From an uncultured Holophagaceae bacterium (GTDB lineage Bacteria > Acidobacteriota > Holophagae > Holophagales > Holophagaceae), in assembly GCA_903913215.1 (NCBI GenBank), contig CAIWKE010000012.1, positions 62,001 through 126,000 of the forward strand: a stretch of 64,000 nucleotides of DNA. The letters are read 5' to 3'. A program made the position numbers and the translations under genes. This document shows positions 9,336-19,443 of the stretch, in pieces (positions within the stretch are counted from its first letter, which is position 1; every line of letters starts with the position of its first letter). Under the pieces are notes generated by a model. It was not told where the DNA came from, made no database searches, and saw nothing but the letters and a program-made list of their open reading frames with translations.

Positions 9336-10604
9336 ATGCAGTCTTCGCAACGCGCCCGGATGGCCATCTTCCTCACGGTCTTCGTCGACCTTTTGGGCTT
9401 TGGCATCGTCATCCCGATCCTTCCACTCTACGCCCAGGCCATCGCCGATCACCCCAGCGCCTGGATGGCCGGCGTGAACAACTTTCTGGGTCTGGGCGGC
9501 ACGGGCACCACGCCCGGCGCCTTCTGGGCCGGCGTGGGCTTCCTCAGCTACAGCGTCATGCAGTTCATCGCCTCGCCCATCCTGGGCCGAATCTCGGACA
9601 AGGTCGGCCGCAAGCCGGTGCTCTGGGTGAGCCTGGTGGGCTCGGCCTTCGGCTACCTCATGCTGGCCCTCACCAGCCGCTTCGAGTGGATGCTGGCGGC
9701 CCGGATCCTGGACGGCATCACCGGCGGCAACATCTCCGTGGCCCAGGCGGCCATGGCGGATGGCTCCAAGCCTGAGGAGCGCTCCAAGGTCCTGGGCATG
9801 ATCGGGGCCGCCTTCGGCCTGGGCTTCGTGCTGGGTCCCGCCCTGGCAGGGGTGCTCAGCGGCAGCCACTTCGGCCATGAGCTGTTGGCCACCCGGGGCT
9901 GGCACTTGCCCTTCTTCGTCGCGGGCGGCCTCTCCCTGCTGGCCTCGCTGATGGTGCTGCTCTGGCTGCCTGAGACGCTCACACCTGAGGTCCGCGCCCG
10001 GTCCCGGGCCCATGAGAGCCGCGGTCATGCTCTGGTGAAAGCCATGAAGATCCCCGGCATGGCCCAGCTGCTCATGGTCTCCCTGCTGGCCATGGCGGGC
10101 TTCGCCATGATGGAAGGCACCTTCGCCCTGCTGGTCCACCAGCGCTTCAACTTCCACCAGCGGGAGGTGGGCTTCCTCTTCGCAGGGATCGGCGTGCTCA
10201 TGGTGATCTACCAGGGCGGCCTGGTCCGAGTGGTGGCCAAGCGAATTCCCGAGCGGATCGCCCTCATCACGGGGCTGATCCTCATGGGCCTCACCCTGCC
10301 CCTCATGCCCAAGGCCGCCTGGATGTGGCCCTTCGTCCTGCTATTCATCCCCCTGGCCTGGGGCAGCGGCATGGGCAACACCGCCGGCTCGGCCCTGGCC
10401 AGCCAGCTGACACCCCCAGAGGACCAGGGCGCCCTCTTTGGCGTCATGAATGCCATGAGCGGCGTGGGCCGCATCGTGGGCCCCGCCGTGGGCACCTTCA
10501 CCTTTGCCCGCTGGGGCGGCCAGTCCACCTACACAGTCGCGGGCCTCACCCTGGGCATGGCCCTGGTGCTGGCCCTCACCCTCAAGCCCAAGGAAGCCGT
10601 ATGA
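9336..10604 (+). CDS. MFS transporter (TetA-like drug:H+ antiporter family)
   Basis: A 422-residue major facilitator protein with 12 predicted membrane segments. The N-terminus FLTVFVDLLGFGIVIPILPLY matches the TetA/DHA1 class. The loop 2-3 motif A is GRISDKVGRKPVLW, and motif C-like GAAFGLGFVLGPALAG occurs in helix 5. GGAG lies before the ATG. It overlaps hutH by ATGA, so the two are co-translated. That pairing could mean it moves histidine, urocanate or a related compound, but the sequence class is that of drug exporters; the substrate is not decided. Confidence 0.88.
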   Translation: MQSSQRARMAIFLTVFVDLLGFGIVIPILPLYAQAIADHPSAWMAGVNNFLGLGGTGTTPGAFWAGVGFLSYSVMQFIASPILGRISDKVGRKPVLWVSLVGSAFGYLMLALTSRFEWMLAARILDGITGGNISVAQAAMADGSKPEERSKVLGMIGAAFGLGFVLGPALAGVLSGSHFGHELLATRGWHLPFFVAGGLSLLASLMVLLWLPETLTPEVRARSRAHESRGHALVKAMKIPGMAQLLMVSLLAMAGFAMMEGTFALLVHQRFNFHQREVGFLFAGIGVLMVIYQGGLVRVVAKRIPERIALITGLILMGLTLPLMPKAAWMWPFVLLFIPLAWGSGMGNTAGSALASQLTPPEDQGALFGVMNAMSGVGRIVGPAVGTFTFARWGGQSTYTVAGLTLGMALVLALTLKPKEAV

Positions 10605-12091
10605 TCCGCCTCGATGGACAGTCCCTCACCGCCCCGCTGCTGGCGCGCATCGCCGCCGGTGAAGGCGTGGTCCTGGACGAGGCCGCCCTCGCTGTGGTGG
10701 CCGAGAATCGGGGGGTGGTGGACCGAATCGTGGCCGAGGGCCGCACGGTCTACGGCATCAACACGGGCTTCGGCCAGTTCGCCACGGTGGTCATCGCACC
10801 GGATCAACTGCAACTGCTCCAGCTGAACCTCATCCGCAGCCACGCCGCGGGCGTGGGTGACCCGCTGCCCAAGCACCAGACCCGTGCCCTCATGGCCGCC
10901 CGCATCAACTGCCTGCTGAAGGGCCACAGCGGCATCCGCCCGGAGCCCATCCGCCTGCTCACCGCCTGTCTCAACCAGGACGTGGTCCCCGTGGTGCCCA
11001 GCCAGGGCAGCGTAGGCGCCAGCGGCGATCTGGCCCCCCTGGCCCACATGGCCCTGCTGCTGGTGGGTGAGGGCCTGGCCTGGCAGGGCGATGCCCAGGT
11101 GCCCGGGGGTGTGGCCTTGGCCGCGGCCGGCCTCCATCCCGTGACCCTCCAGGCCAAGGAGGGGCTGGCGCTCATCAACGGCACCCAGCTCATCACCGCC
11201 CTTGGCAATCTGGCGCTGGAGAAATTCAACCGCCTGGCCAGCCTGGCGGACGCGATTGCCGGACTCTCGCTGGAGGCCCTGCGCGGCACCCGGGCCGCCT
11301 TTGACCCCCGCATCCACGCGGCCCGCCCCCACCCGGGCCAGATCGCCGTGGCTGCCCACATGCGCGAGCTGCTGGGCCCATCCAGCGCCATCTCCGACAG
11401 CCACCAGGACTGCCACCGGGTCCAGGATGCCTACAGCCTCCGCTGCATCCCCCAGGTGCACGGAGTCACCCGGGATGCCCTGGGCTTCGCAGGCGCCATC
11501 CTGGAGCGGGAGCTGAACGCCGCCACGGACAACCCCATGATCTTCACGGACACTCAGGAGTCCCGCTCCGGCGGCAACTTCCACGGCCAGTATCCGGCCT
11601 TCGCCTGCGACCTGCTGGCCATTGCCGCCGCGGACCTGGCCAGCATCTCCGAGCGGCGCCAGGAGCGCCTGGTGAACCCCGCCTACTCGGACCTGCCCGC
11701 CTTCCTCACCCAGAACGGCGGCCTGGAGTCCGGGTTCATGATGGCCCACGTGACCTCTGCAGCCCTGGTGAGCGAGATGAAGGGCTGGGCCCACCCCGCC
11801 TGCGTGGATAGCATCCCCACCAGCGCCGGCAAGGAGGACCATGTGAGCATGGGCCCCATCGCCGCCCGCAAGCTGCTGCGCTCCGTGGACGCCCTGGAGC
11901 AGGTGCTGGCCATCGAGGCCCGCATGGCCCTGGAGGGCCTGCGCATCATCGGCCTGGCCCCCGCCTCGGGCCTTCAGCCCTTGATGGATGCACTAGCCAA
12001 GGCTTGCGCTCCCTGGTCAGATCGCGCCATGTTTGTGGAACTGCAAGCTGCCCTCGACGCCCTTCGCGCCTATCAGGAAGCCCACCCATGA
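10601..12091 (+). CDS. hutH: Histidine ammonia-lyase
   Basis: HutH deaminates L-histidine to urocanate, the first step of histidine breakdown. The 496-residue length is normal. The Ala-Ser-Gly triad that cyclises to the MIO cofactor is at 140-142 in GSVGASGDLAPLAH, and YGINTGFG with the catalytic Tyr is near residue 51. FTDTQESRSGGNFHGQ is also a family segment. Start ATG 10601 overlaps the MFS stop, and the stop overlaps the HD gene start, both as ATGA. No hutU, hutI or hutG is nearby, so either the pathway is split or the lyase works on its own here. Phenylalanine or tyrosine ammonia-lyases are related but less likely. Confidence 0.9.
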   Translation: MIRLDGQSLTAPLLARIAAGEGVVLDEAALAVVAENRGVVDRIVAEGRTVYGINTGFGQFATVVIAPDQLQLLQLNLIRSHAAGVGDPLPKHQTRALMAARINCLLKGHSGIRPEPIRLLTACLNQDVVPVVPSQGSVGASGDLAPLAHMALLLVGEGLAWQGDAQVPGGVALAAAGLHPVTLQAKEGLALINGTQLITALGNLALEKFNRLASLADAIAGLSLEALRGTRAAFDPRIHAARPHPGQIAVAAHMRELLGPSSAISDSHQDCHRVQDAYSLRCIPQVHGVTRDALGFAGAILERELNAATDNPMIFTDTQESRSGGNFHGQYPAFACDLLAIAAADLASISERRQERLVNPAYSDLPAFLTQNGGLESGFMMAHVTSAALVSEMKGWAHPACVDSIPTSAGKEDHVSMGPIAARKLLRSVDALEQVLAIEARMALEGLRIIGLAPASGLQPLMDALAKACAPWSDRAMFVELQAALDALRAYQEAHP

Positions 12092-12768
12092 CCTTGCCCA
12101 CCCCCTGGCGAGAGGCCTGTGAACAAGCGCTGCGGCGCTTCTCGGATGCAGATGCCATCCGGTTCTGGGGCATCGGCCATGAGGTGGACGGCAGCTACCA
12201 GCCCATCTTCAACTACCGTTTCGAGCACACCTACGGGGCAGTGCTCCTGGCCCGCTGGCTGGCCCCCCTCACGGGCGCGGATGCCGAAATCCTGGAGTGC
12301 GCCGCCTGGCTCCACGATGTGGCCAAGCGCCTGAAGGATCCCCACACCAAGGACACCCACGCCCAGGACGCTTCGGCCCTGGTGCCGGAACTGCTCGCGG
12401 GCACAGACTTCCCCCCGGAGAAGTTCGCCGCCGTGCGCCACGCCATCGAGCACCATGTGGGCCTGCGCCTGTCGAAACCCCTGGAGCCCCTGGAGACCGC
12501 CTGCCTCTGGGACTGCGACAAGCTCAGCAAGATCGGGGCAGCCAGCCTCATCCACTTTGGCTGCATCAGCGGCGCCTTCCAGCCCATCACCACTGCCGAG
12601 ATCCTGCGTCGGGGCGTGGCCTGGCTGGACCTGGCCAGAGGGATCACCGCCAGCTTCAATACGGAACCCGCTCGCGAAGAGGGCCGGCGCCGCCTGGCTT
12701 TCATCGAGGCCCACTACGCCCAGCTGGGACGGGAGTGGTCAGACCCCATGGAGATGACACCGCCATGA
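12088..12768 (+). CDS. HD-domain phosphohydrolase
   Basis: A 226-residue protein of the HD metal-dependent phosphohydrolase superfamily. The metal ligands appear as FEHTYGAVLLARWL (His), AAWLHDVAKR (HD), AIEHHVGLRL (His pair) and WDCDKLSKIG (distal Asp). The start was set at ATG 12088 because it overlaps the hutH stop by ATGA; the end overlaps the HEAT gene in the same way. The substrate may be a nucleotide or phosphate ester; nothing points to GYP-type c-di-GMP activity. Its placement between hutH and a HEAT-repeat/kinase pair is unusual and may link it to signalling. Confidence 0.82.
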   Translation: MTLPTPWREACEQALRRFSDADAIRFWGIGHEVDGSYQPIFNYRFEHTYGAVLLARWLAPLTGADAEILECAAWLHDVAKRLKDPHTKDTHAQDASALVPELLAGTDFPPEKFAAVRHAIEHHVGLRLSKPLEPLETACLWDCDKLSKIGAASLIHFGCISGAFQPITTAEILRRGVAWLDLARGITASFNTEPAREEGRRRLAFIEAHYAQLGREWSDPMEMTPP

Positions 12769-15176
12769 GCAGCTTCCTGCAGGTCGCCCAGAGCCTGACC
12801 GTGGCCCTCAAAGCGCTGCAGATGTACACCGCTGCCCATCCCCGGGCCCAGCAGTCGCTGAGCATGGCTCAGATCGCGCTGGAGGATTGGCTCGAGCACA
12901 CGCTCCAACTACAGTTCGTAGCCACTGGAGCCAAGGCCTTCGTGGACGGCGAGCTCCTGGATACGAAGGTTCCGCAGATCGCCAACCTGGCCAAGCTGGT
13001 GACCGAGCGGGCCATCAGCGGCTTCATCGTGGAACGTGGCGTCACCGAGGAGGACCTGCTCTCCTTCCTCCAAGGCCTGGCCCTCAAACCCCAGCGTCTG
13101 GAGGAGGCTGGCGGCTTCGAGGCCTTCCTCCGCACGGCCGGGGTCCGCCACATCAAGGTCTCCCAGACCCGCTACCAGGAGATCAGCGAAGGCGAACACG
13201 CCGCCAAGGGCCAGGAGAAGGCCCCCCTCTTCAATCCCGCCGCCCCTGCCAAGGCCCCCGGGTCCCAGGCCAAGGTTGGCGGCGCCGATGCCAAGCCCGG
13301 CGCCGGACCCAAGGCCGGGGAGGGCCAGACTGGTGCCGATGGCAAGGTTGCTGCTAACGCCGCGGCCAAGGCCACACCCAAGGCCCACCTCACGGCCGAA
13401 GCTCTCCTGAAGCTCTTCCAGGACGCCGTGCAGATCTCCCCGGACCTGGACTTGGGGCCCGCCAACCCGAGCTATGGCGAAGACGATGGCGTCCTGGGCT
13501 TTCTCAAGCGGGTCAGCCCCGCGGACCTCAGCGGGCTTGGCCCCATGGGGCGGGAGCTGGGCCTGGGCGAAGGCATGCCCACCCCGGCCCAGCTCGGCAC
13601 CCTCCGGCAGGCCCTCATGGGTCTCAGCCCCGAGGTGCAGATGAACCTACTGGCGGGCCTCTCGAGCCTGCCTGGCCAGCCCGCGGGTCTGGCCATGGGC
13701 CTGAAGGCCCTGGCAGGCGAAGTGCTGGCCTCCGCCGCCAGCACGGCCATGGCCAAGGGGGCCACCTGGGCCCAACTCCGGGGCCCCATCAAAGACATCC
13801 TGCGGCCCCTGGCCAACCGCGACACCATGGTTCGGACCCTGGCCGCCCGCTTGCACGCGGCGGGCCTGGACTCTGCCCAAGCGGACTTCCTCCTGCGGCA
13901 ACTGGAGTGGGAGGATCTCAGCCTCGAAGCCAAGCTGGTGAAGGTCCTCGACGGGGGCGAACTGCTGGAATTGAGCCAGGAGCAGCGGCTGGCCCTGCTA
14001 CGCGAGCTGTTGGACACCCGCCGCTTCGATGATTTCATGCGGGTCCAGGAGGTATTGCTGCACATGCTCGGCCACGAGCAGCCCGCCTACCGCATCAAGG
14101 CTGTCCAGACCCTCGCGGGCATTGCCCGCTGGGCCCAGGACCCGGGCCTGCCCAGGGAGGCCGAGGGTTCCCTGTCCGAAGGCCTCCGGGCCAACTTCGC
14201 CTGGGAACCAGATCCCCCCATCCATCGCTGGACCACGGAGGCGCTGGAGTTCCTGCTGACCTCCCTCGTGGAACGGGGCGAGTTTGGCCATGTCATGGCG
14301 GACCTCCAGGAACTGGAGGATCTCACCACCTTCCTGGAGGAGCAGCACCCCTGGCGGAACCAGGCCATCGATCAGCTGCGCCAGGCGCTCACACGACCCC
14401 TCCTGCTGGATGCCGTGATCGACCACATCTTCACCATGCCCCGCGAGCAGGCCATCGAGCAGATCTACCCCTATCTGGACTTCCTGAACGAGCCCATGGC
14501 GCTGCATCTGGTGGACCGACTGGGCAGTGAGAAAGACCGCACCCATCGAGGCCGCCTGGTGGAGGCCGCGCGGAGCCTGGGCCCCGTGGCCCTGCCAGCC
14601 CTCATGTCGGCCCTGGACGCCTCTGCCTGGTTCCTGGTCCGCAACGCCCTGACCATCCTCTCTGACCTGGGCGACGCGGGCTGCGTGCCGGCCATCATCC
14701 CCCTCCTGCGCCACCCGGAACCCCGGGTCCGCCGCACGGCGGTGCGAGCCCTCTACAAGCTGGGAGGCCCCGTGGCGGAGCCTCACCTCGTGGCCCGCAT
14801 CAAAGACACGGATGGCGACACGCTCCAGGAGATCCTCTTCGTGCTGGCCCAACTCCGCTCGGAGTCCAGCCTCGCCCCCGTGGCGGAGCTGGCCCAGGAC
14901 AAGCGGGTGGTGGAGAAGCTCCGCATCCAGGCCCTGGATACGCTGGCCCACATCGCCTCACCCCGGGCCCTGCCCGTCATCATGGAATGCCTGAAGCGCA
15001 AGACCTTCTTCAGCGCCGGGGAATCCCCGGCCATCCGCCTGGCCGCGGCCAAGGCCCTGGCCGCCTTGGCAACGCCTGAGGCCCGGGCCGCCTTCAAGAA
15101 GCTGGTGGACTCAGAACCCAAGGGTGAGGCGCGGGAGGCCATGCTCCGATTTCTGGATCAGCCGGTGCAGCCGTGA
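12765..15176 (+). CDS. Large HEAT-repeat protein with N-terminal helical domain
   Basis: An 803-residue soluble protein. Residues 1-145 form a compact domain beginning FLQVAQSLTVALKALQMYTA, which resembles a helical domain I recall at the start of some bacterial signalling proteins. Residues about 145-215 are a low-complexity Ala/Lys/Gly/Pro linker. The middle is helical and Leu-rich. About residues 590-800 hold five or six HEAT repeats (for example PEPRVRRTAVRALYKLG). HEAT arrays usually bind protein partners. Start ATG 12765 overlaps the HD gene stop, and the end overlaps the kinase start as GTGA. The function is unknown, but tight coupling to a histidine kinase suggests it is a partner or sensor input. 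Confidence 0.85.
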   Translation: MSSFLQVAQSLTVALKALQMYTAAHPRAQQSLSMAQIALEDWLEHTLQLQFVATGAKAFVDGELLDTKVPQIANLAKLVTERAISGFIVERGVTEEDLLSFLQGLALKPQRLEEAGGFEAFLRTAGVRHIKVSQTRYQEISEGEHAAKGQEKAPLFNPAAPAKAPGSQAKVGGADAKPGAGPKAGEGQTGADGKVAANAAAKATPKAHLTAEALLKLFQDAVQISPDLDLGPANPSYGEDDGVLGFLKRVSPADLSGLGPMGRELGLGEGMPTPAQLGTLRQALMGLSPEVQMNLLAGLSSLPGQPAGLAMGLKALAGEVLASAASTAMAKGATWAQLRGPIKDILRPLANRDTMVRTLAARLHAAGLDSAQADFLLRQLEWEDLSLEAKLVKVLDGGELLELSQEQRLALLRELLDTRRFDDFMRVQEVLLHMLGHEQPAYRIKAVQTLAGIARWAQDPGLPREAEGSLSEGLRANFAWEPDPPIHRWTTEALEFLLTSLVERGEFGHVMADLQELEDLTTFLEEQHPWRNQAIDQLRQALTRPLLLDAVIDHIFTMPREQAIEQIYPYLDFLNEPMALHLVDRLGSEKDRTHRGRLVEAARSLGPVALPALMSALDASAWFLVRNALTILSDLGDAGCVPAIIPLLRHPEPRVRRTAVRALYKLGGPVAEPHLVARIKDTDGDTLQEILFVLAQLRSESSLAPVAELAQDKRVVEKLRIQALDTLAHIASPRALPVIMECLKRKTFFSAGESPAIRLAAAKALAALATPEARAAFKKLVDSEPKGEAREAMLRFLDQPVQP

Positions 15177-16252
15177 CAGGCGCCCAGCCCCATCCAGATC
15201 CCCGCCAGCTCCTGGAGGCCTTCGAGGCATTCACCGCCGCATCGGAGCACCTGCAGACCCGCTACGAGGCCCTGCAGGCCCAGCTCGGGCAGCTCCAGGG
15301 CGAGTTGCAGACGGTGCTGGAGGCCGTACCCTTCGCCATCTGGGTGCTGGCCGAGGACGGCTCGCTGCGCTTCACCAACCGGCCCCAGGGCCTTGAGGGC
15401 CGCTTCCTTGAGAATCCGCCCCCCTGGGAGGCGGGTAGCCCAGGCGGCCAGCGCCGCTTCCAGACCCAGGAAGGCCGCGAGCTGATCTTTGAGGAAGAGC
15501 GGCGCTCGGCCCCCCATGGCGGCGCCATCGTCACCCTGCGGGACGTCACGGAGGCCGTGCTCAAGGCCCAGCAGGCCACCCGAGAGGACCGCCTCTCGGC
15601 CATGGGCCGCATGGCTGCGGAGCTGGCCCACGAAATCCGCAATCCACTTGGAAGCCTGGCCCTCTTCTCCGGGATGCTCGTTGAGGATCTGGCGGAACAG
15701 GAGGGCCCCCTGGATCTGGCCCGCAAGATGCAGGAAGGGGTCGGCCGCCTCAACCGCGTCGTGGGCAACACCCTGGCCTTCAGCCGGGATCTGCGACCCA
15801 AGCTGGGCGTGGTCACCCTGCGCCCCTTCTGGGAAGAGGTGCTGCGGAACGCCCCCCTCACGGAGGCGGTGCCCTGGGAGAACCAGATTCCCAAGCAGGC
15901 CACCTGGATCGGTGACCCGGATCTGCTGCGCCAGGTGGCGCAGAACCTCGTGCAGAACGCCAACCGGGCCCTGGAGGACCAGGAGAACCCGCACCTGGTG
16001 CTGGCGGCCGTGAAAGAGCGCCTGGAGGATCGGCCCTGCTGGCATCTCACCCTCTCGGACAACGGTTGTGGCATTCCCCAGGAGGCCCTGGCCAAGGTAT
16101 TCGATCCCTTTTTCAGCACCTTCGGGGGTGGCACGGGCCTGGGCCTGGCGGTCTGCCACCGCATCATCGTGGCCCATGAGGGCCTGCTCTTCATCGAGAG
16201 CCAGGTGGGCCGGGGCACCACCGTGCACCTGCGCCTGGCCGCAGCCCAATAG
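15173..16252 (+). CDS. Sensor histidine kinase (PAS-HisKA-HATPase), soluble
   Basis: A 359-residue cytoplasmic kinase. An N-terminal helical segment leads to a PAS-like domain at about residues 45-130 (VLEAVPFAIWVLAEDGSLRF). HisKA follows with LAHEIRNPLGSLALF and phospho-His 153, then HATPase with NLVQNANRAL, LSDNGCGIP and GTGLGLAVCHRI. The layout resembles FleS/AtoS-type kinases that pair with NtrC-like regulators. The GTG start at 15173 overlaps the HEAT gene stop (GTGA). No response regulator is adjacent, so it is an orphan in gene order. The last gene of the coupled MFS-hutH-HD-HEAT-kinase run. Confidence 0.9.
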   Translation: MTGAQPHPDPRQLLEAFEAFTAASEHLQTRYEALQAQLGQLQGELQTVLEAVPFAIWVLAEDGSLRFTNRPQGLEGRFLENPPPWEAGSPGGQRRFQTQEGRELIFEEERRSAPHGGAIVTLRDVTEAVLKAQQATREDRLSAMGRMAAELAHEIRNPLGSLALFSGMLVEDLAEQEGPLDLARKMQEGVGRLNRVVGNTLAFSRDLRPKLGVVTLRPFWEEVLRNAPLTEAVPWENQIPKQATWIGDPDLLRQVAQNLVQNANRALEDQENPHLVLAAVKERLEDRPCWHLTLSDNGCGIPQEALAKVFDPFFSTFGGGTGLGLAVCHRIIVAHEGLLFIESQVGRGTTVHLRLAAAQ

Positions 16253-16327: not shown

Positions 16328-16852
16328 ATGTCCCTGGCCCATCTCACCCCTGGAAACCAGGCGCCGGAAATCGTGAACGCCATCGTGGAGATTCCCACAG
16401 GCTCCCGCATCAAGTATGAGATCGACCACCACACAGGCCTGGTCCACGTGGATCGTGTGCTCTTCTCCCCCTTCCACTACCCGGCTGAGTACGGCTTCAT
16501 CCCAGGCACCCTGGCCGAGGACGGCGATCCCGCGGACGTGCTGGTGCTCATCAATGGCTCCACCTATCCGGGCGTGGTGATCCGCGCCCGGCCCATCGCC
16601 ATCCTGCGCATGAGCGACGAGAAGGGACGCGATCAGAAGGTCCTGGCCGTGGCCACGGACGATCCCACCTATGCCCACGTGACCTCCCGTACGGACCTGC
16701 CCCCCCACTTCCTGCTGGAGGTGGAGCACTTCTTCCTCACCTACAAGGATCTGGAGCGCAAGACCGTCTCCAGCGATGGCTGGGGCGGCAAGGCCGAGGC
16801 CCACGAGTTCGTCCGGGCCTCCGTGGAGGCCTACAAGAAGGCCAATGGGTAG
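16328..16852 (+). CDS. ppa: Inorganic pyrophosphatase, family I
   Basis: Ppa hydrolyses cytosolic pyrophosphate and so pulls biosynthetic reactions forward. The 174-residue length is standard for bacterial soluble enzymes. The signature EDGDPADVLVL carries the metal-binding Asp residues. EIDHHTGLVHVDRVL and FHYPAEYGFIPGTL match conserved substrate-binding strands. GAGGAG lies five bases before ATG. A HAD phosphatase follows after six bases, so the two are probably co-transcribed. Confidence 0.95.
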   Translation: MSLAHLTPGNQAPEIVNAIVEIPTGSRIKYEIDHHTGLVHVDRVLFSPFHYPAEYGFIPGTLAEDGDPADVLVLINGSTYPGVVIRARPIAILRMSDEKGRDQKVLAVATDDPTYAHVTSRTDLPPHFLLEVEHFFLTYKDLERKTVSSDGWGGKAEAHEFVRASVEAYKKANG

Positions 16853-16858
16853 CGCGGC

Positions 16859-17566
16859 GTGACGGCACCGGAATCAGCCCCAGGGCTGGTCTGCTTTGAC
16901 CTGGACGGGACCCTGGTGGACCCGCTGCTGGGTGTGCGGAACTGCCTGGCCAAGACCTGCGCGGCCTTCGATCTGGCCCTGCCGGACGAGGCCACGGTGC
17001 GGGACTGGATCGGCTTCGGCATGCGGGAATCCCTGAGCACCCTTAAGGGCCTGGAGGAGCCCGCCCGGCTGGAGGCGGCGCTGGAGTTCTACTGGGAGCG
17101 CTACCGCGAGGACGGCGTCTTCGAGCACGAGCTCTATCCGGGCGTCTTCCACTTGCTGCACCGCCTCAAGCGCCAGGGGCACCGCATCTACATCGTGTCC
17201 GCCAAGCCCAGCATCTTCGCCCGCCGCATCGCCTACCAGTTCGACCTGAACCTCATCTTCGACGATATCTTCGGCAGCAGCCTGAAGGGGCGCTGGCAGC
17301 CCAAGACTGAAGTCATCGCGGGTCTGGTTCAGCGGGGCACGGTCTGGGCCGGCGGGGTCTTCATCGGCGACCGCGGCGTGGACATGGTGGCCGCCCGGGA
17401 TCACGGCCTGGAGGCCATCGGCGTGGGCTGGGGCTACGGCAGCCTGGAGGAACTCCAGGGCGCAGGGGCCGAGCGCATTTTCCCATCGGTGGCCGACCTG
17501 GATGCCTGGCTGAAGGTACGCTTCCCGCAGCCAGAACGCTTCGACGCCTTCAGCCGGTCGGAGTAG
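16859..17566 (+). CDS. HAD-superfamily phosphatase (Gph-like)
   Basis: A 235-residue HAD hydrolase. Motif I is CFDLDGTLVDPLLG, with both catalytic Asp residues. The alpha-helical cap (about residues 25-100) is of the phosphoglycolate-phosphatase type. Motif II lies in IYIVSAKP, and motif IV is GDRGVDMVAARDHGLEAIGV. It starts with GTG 16859 right after ppa. Its 3' end runs 17 bases into the convergent LolA-like gene. Phosphoglycolate is the most common substrate for this subfamily, but pyrophosphatase or nucleotidase activity is possible. Confidence 0.85.
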   Translation: MTAPESAPGLVCFDLDGTLVDPLLGVRNCLAKTCAAFDLALPDEATVRDWIGFGMRESLSTLKGLEEPARLEAALEFYWERYREDGVFEHELYPGVFHLLHRLKRQGHRIYIVSAKPSIFARRIAYQFDLNLIFDDIFGSSLKGRWQPKTEVIAGLVQRGTVWAGGVFIGDRGVDMVAARDHGLEAIGVGWGYGSLEELQGAGAERIFPSVADLDAWLKVRFPQPERFDAFSRSE

Positions 17567-18132: not shown

Positions 18133-19443
18133 TCAGTTCCGCTTCATTTCAACGCTGAGCTTTGCCGTGCTGCCCTTGACCGGGGCAGGCCGGTGGATCT
18201 GGCCCTCGCTCACCACCACGCCCCGGTGGCGCAGTTGGACCACAACCTCCAGCTCGCCATCCAACTCGGCTGGCACCTCCAGGCGCAGCACCGAGGGAGC
18301 GCCGGAGCGGCCCGCGAGGGTCAGCTCGCCCAGCAGAGAGTTGATCGCATCGCTGGCCTCATGGCCCCTGGGCTTCAGGACGGGCTTGCGGACCTCCTGG
18401 TGCAGCGAGGAGGCCAGTCCAGCCAGTGGATCCATCCGTGGCCCGGTCTTGGGGCGCGGGGCGACTGGAAGGGGCGCCGGGGGAGGCTCGTGGACGGGTT
18501 CGGATTCTTGAGTGGGCTCAGGCTCTGGAGTGTGTTCGGGCTCTGGAACGTGTTCGATGACGGGTTCAGGCGCCGGTGGATTGAACTCCTCCATGAAGGC
18601 CTGGCTTGGCGTTGGGTCAGCTTCCATCAGGAAGCCCAGCTCCTCCGAGACAGGCTCCGGAGGTTCAGGCAGGATGGGGGCCTCGATGAGGAAGCCGATG
18701 TCGTCATCGTCGTCAGCCAGGGGCTCAGCAGGTGGGGCGGCAGGAGCGGGCTCCTCAAGATCCAGCAAGTCCGACACGGAAGGCAGATCCGAAAGGGTGA
18801 GCGCCGCCGGGGCTGGGCGGACGGGGGCGGGCACCTGGGTCGCAGCCCCCTCCTCCAGCACGTGAGCCTTGATGTGCGAAAGCGCCAGCTTGGTGATGCC
18901 ACGCAGGGTTTCAAAAACCCCCGTGCCATCCGAAGCCACGGATTGGAAGCTCGGCAGTCCCCGGGGGTTGAAGGTGCTCTCCAGTTGGTCGATGGAGACG
19001 ACGTTCTTGAGGTCCCGCTTGTTCCACTGGAAGACCGTGGGAATCTCACCCAGCACCAGGCCCAGTTCCCGGAGGTTTTCCTCGAGGTTCAGGTAGCTCT
19101 CCCGGCAGGCATCGACCATGGCGGTCTGGCTGTCCACCACGAAGACAATGCCGTCCACACCCTTGAGCACGAGCTTGCGGGTGCTGTTGTAGAAGACCTG
19201 GCCCGGCACTGTGTAGAGCTGGAGTTTGGTCTTGAAGCCACCCACCATGCCCACGTCCAGGGGCAGGAGGTCGAAGAAGAGGGTTCGATCGGTCTCGGTG
19301 TTGAGGCTCACCATCTCGCCCCGGGCCTTCTGGCTGGTGCTGCCGTAGATGGTGTTGAGGTTGGTGGTCTTGCCGCACAGACCGGGCCCGTAGTAGACGA
19401 TTTTCGTCGTCATCTGCCGGGTGGCATGATTGAAGAACACCAT
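18133..19443 (-). CDS. MglA-like Ras-family GTPase with long C-terminal tail
   Basis: Residues 1-195 form a bacterial small GTPase of the MglA/gliding group. G1 is GPGLCGKTTNL and G3 is the MglA-type TVPGQVFYN. G4 is NKRD. MglA switches cell polarity and type IV pilus or gliding machinery. The protein has 436 residues instead of about 195. The extra tail starts with a Pro/Ala/Glu-rich region holding two similar patches, DIGFLIEAP and ELGFLMEAD. A Glu-Pro repeat segment follows, and a final domain of about 60 residues (SVLRLEVPAELDGELEVVVQ) looks like beta-sandwich. It is the first gene of a pair with the LolA-like gene. No MglB is nearby. Confidence 0.88.
   Translation of the reverse strand: MVFFNHATRQMTTKIVYYGPGLCGKTTNLNTIYGSTSQKARGEMVSLNTETDRTLFFDLLPLDVGMVGGFKTKLQLYTVPGQVFYNSTRKLVLKGVDGIVFVVDSQTAMVDACRESYLNLEENLRELGLVLGEIPTVFQWNKRDLKNVVSIDQLESTFNPRGLPSFQSVASDGTGVFETLRGITKLALSHIKAHVLEEGAATQVPAPVRPAPAALTLSDLPSVSDLLDLEEPAPAAPPAEPLADDDDDIGFLIEAPILPEPPEPVSEELGFLMEADPTPSQAFMEEFNPPAPEPVIEHVPEPEHTPEPEPTQESEPVHEPPPAPLPVAPRPKTGPRMDPLAGLASSLHQEVRKPVLKPRGHEASDAINSLLGELTLAGRSGAPSVLRLEVPAELDGELEVVVQLRHRGVVVSEGQIHRPAPVKGSTAKLSVEMKRN

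Follow-up and report, generated by a model that had tools for sequence, protein, structure and literature searches.

A proposed FlrB/FleS-like histidine kinase in a metabolic gene string of the Holophagaceae, and a candidate partner regulator that decays where kinase and flagellum are absent

We have analysed a stretch of DNA of 64,000 nucleotides (the window) from a Geothrix genome of 3.9 Mb (Acidobacteriota, Holophagaceae), with particular attention to a histidine kinase (HK) whose gene lies there behind those of an HD-domain phosphohydrolase (HD) and a HEAT-repeat protein (HEAT). The window is C12:62001-126000 of this source genome, G000; in what follows G-numbers denote genomes, L-numbers loci, C-numbers contigs of G000, and g2, g3 and g6 genera of the Holophagaceae. 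The genes concerned are collected in Table 1, where the labels MFS, hutH, ppa and gph, like those of lolA and the MglA-like GTPase, were read off the sequences without a family search. HD, HEAT and HK are open reading frames joined by overlaps, ATGA between HD and HEAT and GTGA between HEAT and HK, with a further ATGA between hutH and HD. An original prediction made from the window took the overlaps to mean that the three products arise in a fixed ratio, which is an inference, and proposed that they form one device; it described the length, N-terminal motif and Ala/Lys/Gly/Pro linker of the HEAT protein correctly. A four-nucleotide overlap also joins the MFS gene to hutH (10601-10604), so that such overlaps run through the whole string from MFS to HK. 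Of 27 pairs of neighbours on the same strand of the window, 5 overlap by exactly four nucleotides; the gene set behind this count was crude and left out the hutH-HD and HD-HEAT joints. Thus the overlaps do not single out HD, HEAT and HK, because they also link MFS and hutH and are frequent in the window.

Table 1. Genes of the overlapping string, a gene adjoining it, and the candidate partner regulator with its upstream neighbour
Feature	Position	Strand	Remarks
MFS transporter	9336..10604	+	first gene of the overlapping string; label by sequence inspection
hutH-like (histidine ammonia-lyase)	10601..12091	+	open reading frame; label by sequence inspection
HD-domain phosphohydrolase, 226 aa	12088..12768	+	PF01966, E 2.5e-9
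HEAT-repeat protein, 803 aa	12765..15176	+	PF13646, E 9.5e-24; also PF02985, PF03130
Histidine kinase, 359 aa, GTG start	15173..16252	+	HisKA + HATPase_c
ppa-like (inorganic pyrophosphatase)	16328..16852	+	follows the kinase gene; label by sequence inspection
gph-like HAD phosphatase	16859..17566	+	last gene of the string; label by sequence inspection
MglA-like GTPase	window 18133-19443	-	adjoins the operon
Candidate response regulator	G000:C27:183741-185252 (L177:7739-9253)		receiver + sigma54 AAA+ + Fis-type helix-turn-helix
Receiver-less protein	L177:9295-10074		directly upstream of the candidate regulator; Fis-type helix-turn-helix, P-loop-like motif

The kinase comprises an N-terminal helix, a PAS-like domain, a HisKA domain with the phospho-accepting H153 and a HATPase_c domain, and it is soluble, with no membrane segment as judged by eye. 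HisKA and HATPase_c score above their cut-offs. The PAS domain (PF12860) reaches an expect value (E) of only 0.085, and PAS-like strands are present in the structure model. H153 and the ATPase motifs are invariant in 13 relatives. A presumed likeness of the N-terminus to FleS and FlrB was the first hint as to the kind of kinase, and preceded the evidence that follows. In the source genome flhA is followed by genes for an SRP54-type GTPase, a MinD/ParA protein and a sigma70 factor, which from their order we take to be FlhF, FlhG and FliA. The second-best match of the kinase to sequences in the PDB is 9p6i (E 3.1e-20), extending over residues 45-350, from the PAS domain to the ATPase. This entry is FlrB of Vibrio cholerae, reported to be a cytoplasmic kinase that phosphorylates FlrC and that needs its PAS domain and the MS ring for activity (PMC12607845). 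FlrBC and FleSR are described as requiring the MS ring, the rotor and the export apparatus, and FlrBC-type systems are linked with the FlhF/FlhG set in polar flagellates (PMC7064773). In NCBIfam the kinase comes closest to AtoS, far below the cut-off, and FlrB does not figure among the matches listed for its structure model. Among the matches listed, the Holophagaceae were not met in the literature on FlrB and FlrC.

The kinase occurs with the flagellum, as would be the case for a kinase of the FlrB/FleS type. We used FlhA (PF00771) as the sole flagellar marker in 77 Holophagaceae genomes, finding it in 55 and the kinase in 56. Both are present in 52 genomes and neither in 18, these being eight of Geothrix together with G044, G047-G049, G054 and G055-G059. 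Carriers of both include the culturable flagellates G. rubra and G. limicola. The kinase is found alone in four genomes (G024, G041, G068 and G076, 58-81% complete) and FlhA alone in three (G022, G062 and G072, 72-89% complete). When only genomes of 90% completeness or more and 5% contamination or less are counted (48 in all), 34 have both, 14 have neither, and none is discordant. HEAT does not follow the flagellum in this manner. There is no match to the kinase at 1e-60 anywhere in the eight Geothrix genomes or in all five genomes of g6, where HEAT is present. The eight kinase-less Geothrix form one clade with a support of 100 in a species tree built from 34 loci, and the number of independent losses is therefore about three, namely that clade, g6 and the reduced-genome g2. 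At 1e-70 the kinase family was found in 13 of 247 genomes sampled across the phylum, all of them Holophagaceae. We found no published account of motility for the named Geothrix species.

The company that the kinase gene keeps might suggest something else, that the kinase answers to a metabolic signal with no relation to the flagellum (from histidine or pyrophosphate metabolism) and matches the flagellum by a coincidence of lineage. It is co-transcribed with hutH, judging by the overlaps, and adjoins ppa and gph, and the losses are effectively only two or three. Yet hutH, HD and ppa remain in place in the eight kinase-less Geothrix genomes, and the complete concordance in the good genomes and the similarity of the kinase to FlrB are not expected of a coincidence. 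We consider this explanation very improbable.

No response regulator (RR) adjoins the kinase gene, as the original prediction had observed. G000 gives 14 matches to sigma54 activators, ten of them strong. The candidate on contig 27 scores above cut-off for PF00072, PF00158 and PF02954 and contains GAFTGA; it has the architecture of an FlrC-type sigma54 activator, and matches FlrC structures at E of about 2e-79. No kinase was seen beside it. Neither the kinase nor this regulator was found beside flagellar genes, and a regular-expression scan of the flagellar neighbourhood of G000 returned no sigma54 protein. We searched for the regulator in the 77 genomes at 1e-100. Its identity to the G000 protein is 86-92% where Geothrix is flagellate and the match is full, and 75-83% in most of the remaining flagellate genera (G074, with a partial match, has 66%), falling to 69-77% in the eight kinase-less Geothrix and 48-49% in g6. 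At this threshold it has no match in G060, G062, G075, G054 or g2, and only a paralogue-level match in G040 and G044.

An alignment of 21 orthologues was made from G000, seven chosen flagellates and all 13 kinase-less genomes of Geothrix and g6 (including L184-L196). GAFTGA is intact in all eight flagellate sequences and in none of the 13 that lack kinase and FlhA. All eight kinase-less Geothrix have lost the second acidic residue of Walker B. Within the receiver, the conserved lysine is lost in all eight of these and retained in g6; the phospho-accepting aspartate is lost in G001, G003, G004 and all five g6 genomes. Two script calls were corrected by eye: the aspartate of G009 was scored as lost and is retained, and the lysine of G021 is present, having been missed due to a differing neighbour (AKPF). 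All 21 sequences retain the helix-turn-helix (HTH) motif. The two ends of the protein have diverged to different extents. Receiver identity to G000 is 0.58-0.76 in kinase-less Geothrix as against 0.91-0.93 in three flagellate Geothrix, whereas the corresponding values for the HTH are 0.91-0.96 and 0.89-0.96. Pairwise ratios of nonsynonymous to synonymous substitution (dN/dS) in the receiver are 0.16-0.75 for five kinase-less Geothrix pairs and 0.06-0.16 for four flagellate pairs, compared with 0.00-0.12 and 0.00-0.16 in the HTH. Pairs from g6 are near synonymous saturation and have low receiver ratios (0.05-0.07), so that relaxation is now visible only in Geothrix. Two control RRs are normal in the eight kinase-less Geothrix genomes, at 89-91% and 91-93% identity.

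The lone NtrC-type RR on C11 and the RR on C28 were rejected as partners; their identity is normal in the kinase-less genomes, and they are thus not tied to the flagellum. By inspection, the C11 gene (L174) adjoins an MglA/MglB-like pair and dxs-like genes. Also by inspection, an RR on C36 is PilR-like, while one on C3 has its own kinase alongside. Several sigma54-type AAA+ proteins of G000 (L160, L165, L167) carry GAFTDA or GAYTDA instead of GAFTGA. In addition, the L167 protein is without a normal receiver and is, we assume, FleQ-like.

Decay of this kind could arise in another way. The kinase might regulate flagella through some other RR, and the contig-27 regulator might have degenerated as a consequence of losing its flagellar promoters. 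Partner specificity is inferred solely from shared loss and decay, and other receiver-sigma54 proteins of the genome (C36, C40, C3) lie outside the profiled set, both of which leave such a course conceivable. The receiver residues have decayed too, however, the lysine in 8/8 and the aspartate in 3/8 Geothrix and the aspartate in 5/5 g6, as expected if phosphorylation had stopped, and the two other profiled regulators are unchanged. We regard this alternative as unlikely, though it is the strongest of those considered.

The receiver-less, Fis-type protein encoded directly upstream of the contig-27 regulator is kept in 20 of 20 loci examined. It is a possible partner of the regulator, and its retention may explain why the HTH is retained. 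NtrC proteins that lack GAFTGA and work at sigma70 promoters have been described (PMC10274813). NtrC-type regulators of the GAFTGA-less kind include NtrC of Caulobacter and Rhodobacter capsulatus and VspR of V. cholerae, in which the sigma54-contact loop is lost and the DNA-binding domain kept. The kinase-less sequences in our alignment share these features. They differ in that two lineages show the loss together with that of flagellum and kinase, and that the receiver decays as well. It seems an even chance that, in at least two lineages without flagellum and kinase, the regulator has been kept and re-purposed as a DNA-binding regulator independent of phosphorylation and sigma54, with its HTH under strong purifying selection and probably in conjunction with the receiver-less protein.

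We turn to the genes beside the kinase. HEAT was matched in 67 of the 77 genomes of the order, all belonging to one family, and in 43 of 47 Geothrix genomes. The loci fetched comprise 40 of Geothrix with HEAT (the source genome included) and 20 from other genera; G024, G043 and G044, which have HEAT fragments, were left out. HD precedes a HEAT gene in 40/40 Geothrix loci and in 18/20 of the others (18/18 in L071-L088), the exceptions being a short contig (L089) and a second copy (L090). Of the 32 loci that entered the branch-length analysis described below, 29 have the exact four-nucleotide overlap between HD and HEAT. HK follows HEAT in 32 of the 40 Geothrix loci, with the four-nucleotide overlap kept in every one, and is missing from this place in G001, G002, G003, G004, G005, G009, G010 and G046. 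The place of ppa in the order is kept in most loci, that of gph is kept too, and the order MFS-hutH is kept in Geothrix, across whose loci the hutH-like protein is 83-93% identical. A second HEAT paralogue is common in the cluster in other genera (L072-L076, L080, L081, L084). Thus the cluster is a conserved feature of the Holophagaceae.

Its parts nevertheless separate. HEAT has no match in Geothrix G021, G022, G023 and G029. In three of these (G021, G023, G029) the order is hutH-HD-HK-gph, with HEAT gone from between HD and HK. HEAT is cleanly missing from their loci (L153, L154, L155), and ppa is likewise not found at that place. In G022, which is 72% complete, neither HEAT nor HK was matched. 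HEAT, HD and HK are therefore not kept together across genomes, and since HEAT and HK have been lost independently of each other an obligate HD-HEAT-kinase machine is not supported. What was originally taken for a system of a make-up not described before is better read as a FlrB/FleS-like kinase among unrelated operon neighbours, because the kinase tracks the flagellum and HEAT does not, and the parts are lost independently. We found no publication joining HEAT repeat, histidine kinase and HD domain in the Acidobacteriota.

The single device of the original prediction, in which HEAT would bind the kinase and control it, as sensor or as scaffold, and HD would provide the input or the output, draws on the conserved order and overlaps. 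It also draws on genus g3 (G050, G051), where by coordinates the kinase lies away from HD-HEAT and beside another HEAT paralogue, and on an apparent acceleration of HEAT in the kinase-less Geothrix clade, where on the fixed species topology both parts of HEAT have 3.8-4.2 times the branch length of neighbouring genes. The acceleration was set aside as a sign of a HEAT-kinase link. Two HEAT types exist in that clade (L049, L053 and L054 against L063-L067), 55-58% identical to each other and in conflict with the species tree; synonymous divergence (dS) is raised too in pairs that cross types, so that the excess is largely a matter of the two types, and g6 shows no such acceleration of HEAT (its ratio there is 0.161, that of HD plus hutH 0.226). 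The presence of two types at one locus would most simply be explained by gene replacement in place. With the kinase found without HEAT in three genomes, HEAT without the kinase in eight Geothrix and g6, and relatives of HEAT outside the family lacking these neighbours, we think control of the kinase by HEAT improbable.

Beyond the family, the HEAT N-terminal domain and/or array was found at 1e-20 in 55 of the 247 phylum-sample genomes (20 Holophagaceae and 35 others). Neighbours of HEAT homologues had been proposed as a check of the single device. HD does precede HEAT within the family, but none of 21 distinct non-Holophagaceae loci (L237-L256 and L145; L139, the same place as L237, was counted once) has an HD, hutH, ppa or gph neighbour. 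Seven of these have distant kinase or receiver matches only, and at L250 the HEAT query itself gave no BLAST match. We know of no function for the Acidobacteriota HEAT proteins that share this N-terminal domain.

Taking these results together, we give a probability of about 0.68 to the assignment in which the kinase belongs to the FlrB/FleS-like flagellar kinases and acts on the contig-27 regulator, with HEAT and HD as separate passengers of the operon that have other tasks. The kinase gene would have left the company of the flagellar genes to join an operon that also holds hutH, ppa and gph. The kinase would autophosphorylate on H153 in answer to an early state of flagellar assembly, and pass the phosphate to the receiver of the unlinked NtrC/FlrC-type activator, which might then turn on the later, sigma54-dependent flagellar promoters. 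HD would be an independent phosphohydrolase and HEAT an independent adaptor, which may touch the kinase in some species and would not be needed by it.

A number of observations weigh against this assignment. The best PDB match of the kinase is ZraS (E 2.4e-23, residues 133-355), not FlrB. With a profile confined to its N-terminal part, no FlrB is recovered up to an E of 10. For the contig-27 regulator, Aquifex NtrC1 and the AtoC model both give better scores than FlrC does, the PDB entries 4l4u, 1ny5 and 3dzd being Aquifex NtrC proteins. Some genomes have the kinase and no match to the regulator at 1e-100 (G060, and G075, which is 92% complete) or a paralogue only (G040, a flagellate), and G000 holds further RRs (C36, C40, C3) beyond those profiled. 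Independent losses of kinase and flagellum are few (the Geothrix clade, g6 and the reduced g2). Finally, adjacency of some HEAT paralogue and the kinase recurs, which hints at a looser link.

The closest known systems are FlrB/FlrC of Vibrio and FleS/FleR of Pseudomonas. Shared with them are a kinase that is soluble and built of an N-terminal PAS-like domain followed by HisKA and HATPase, a sigma54-type regulator with receiver, GAFTGA-containing AAA+ domain and Fis-type HTH, a presence tied to the flagellum, and FlhF/FlhG-like genes beside flhA. They differ in that kinase and regulator here lie on separate contigs, the kinase in a hutH-HD-HEAT-HK string, and in that the N-terminal part taken alone has no detectable sequence similarity. 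The kinase is of a known kind in an unusual placement; what is new is that the regulator decays in parallel. If the assignment is right, an orphan kinase gains a testable job and a named partner, and a flagellar two-component pair can split, with the kinase residing in a metabolic operon. It would also provide a natural experiment in which, after the disappearance of flagellum and kinase, the same sigma54 activator loses its activation machinery in parallel and retains the part that binds DNA. As a caution, overlapping genes in compact genomes need not form one machine.

The passenger proteins have characters of their own. The AlphaFold model of HEAT (mean pLDDT 85.7) has a folded alpha/beta N-terminal domain at 1-133 and a helical array forming a superhelix at about 245-800, with low confidence at 139-207 and 226-242, which are likely to be disordered. 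A fold search with this model returned generic HEAT/ARM proteins only. Within Geothrix HEAT is 45-70% identical, against about 80-90% for HD and HK. HEAT thus evolves fast, and it is sometimes replaced or duplicated; our best guess is that it acts as an adaptor whose binding partner varies. In HD, the residues H47, H76, D77, H122, H123 and D142 are invariant in 15 aligned relatives. It has a weak sequence match to YedJ (PDB 3gw7), and shares the HD motif and the pattern of metal ligands with YedJ-type phosphohydrolases (NCBIfam PRK10119), but lies far below the cut-off of that family, scoring 27.8 bits against 286. The MglA-like GTPase adjoining the operon carries a long C-terminal extension.

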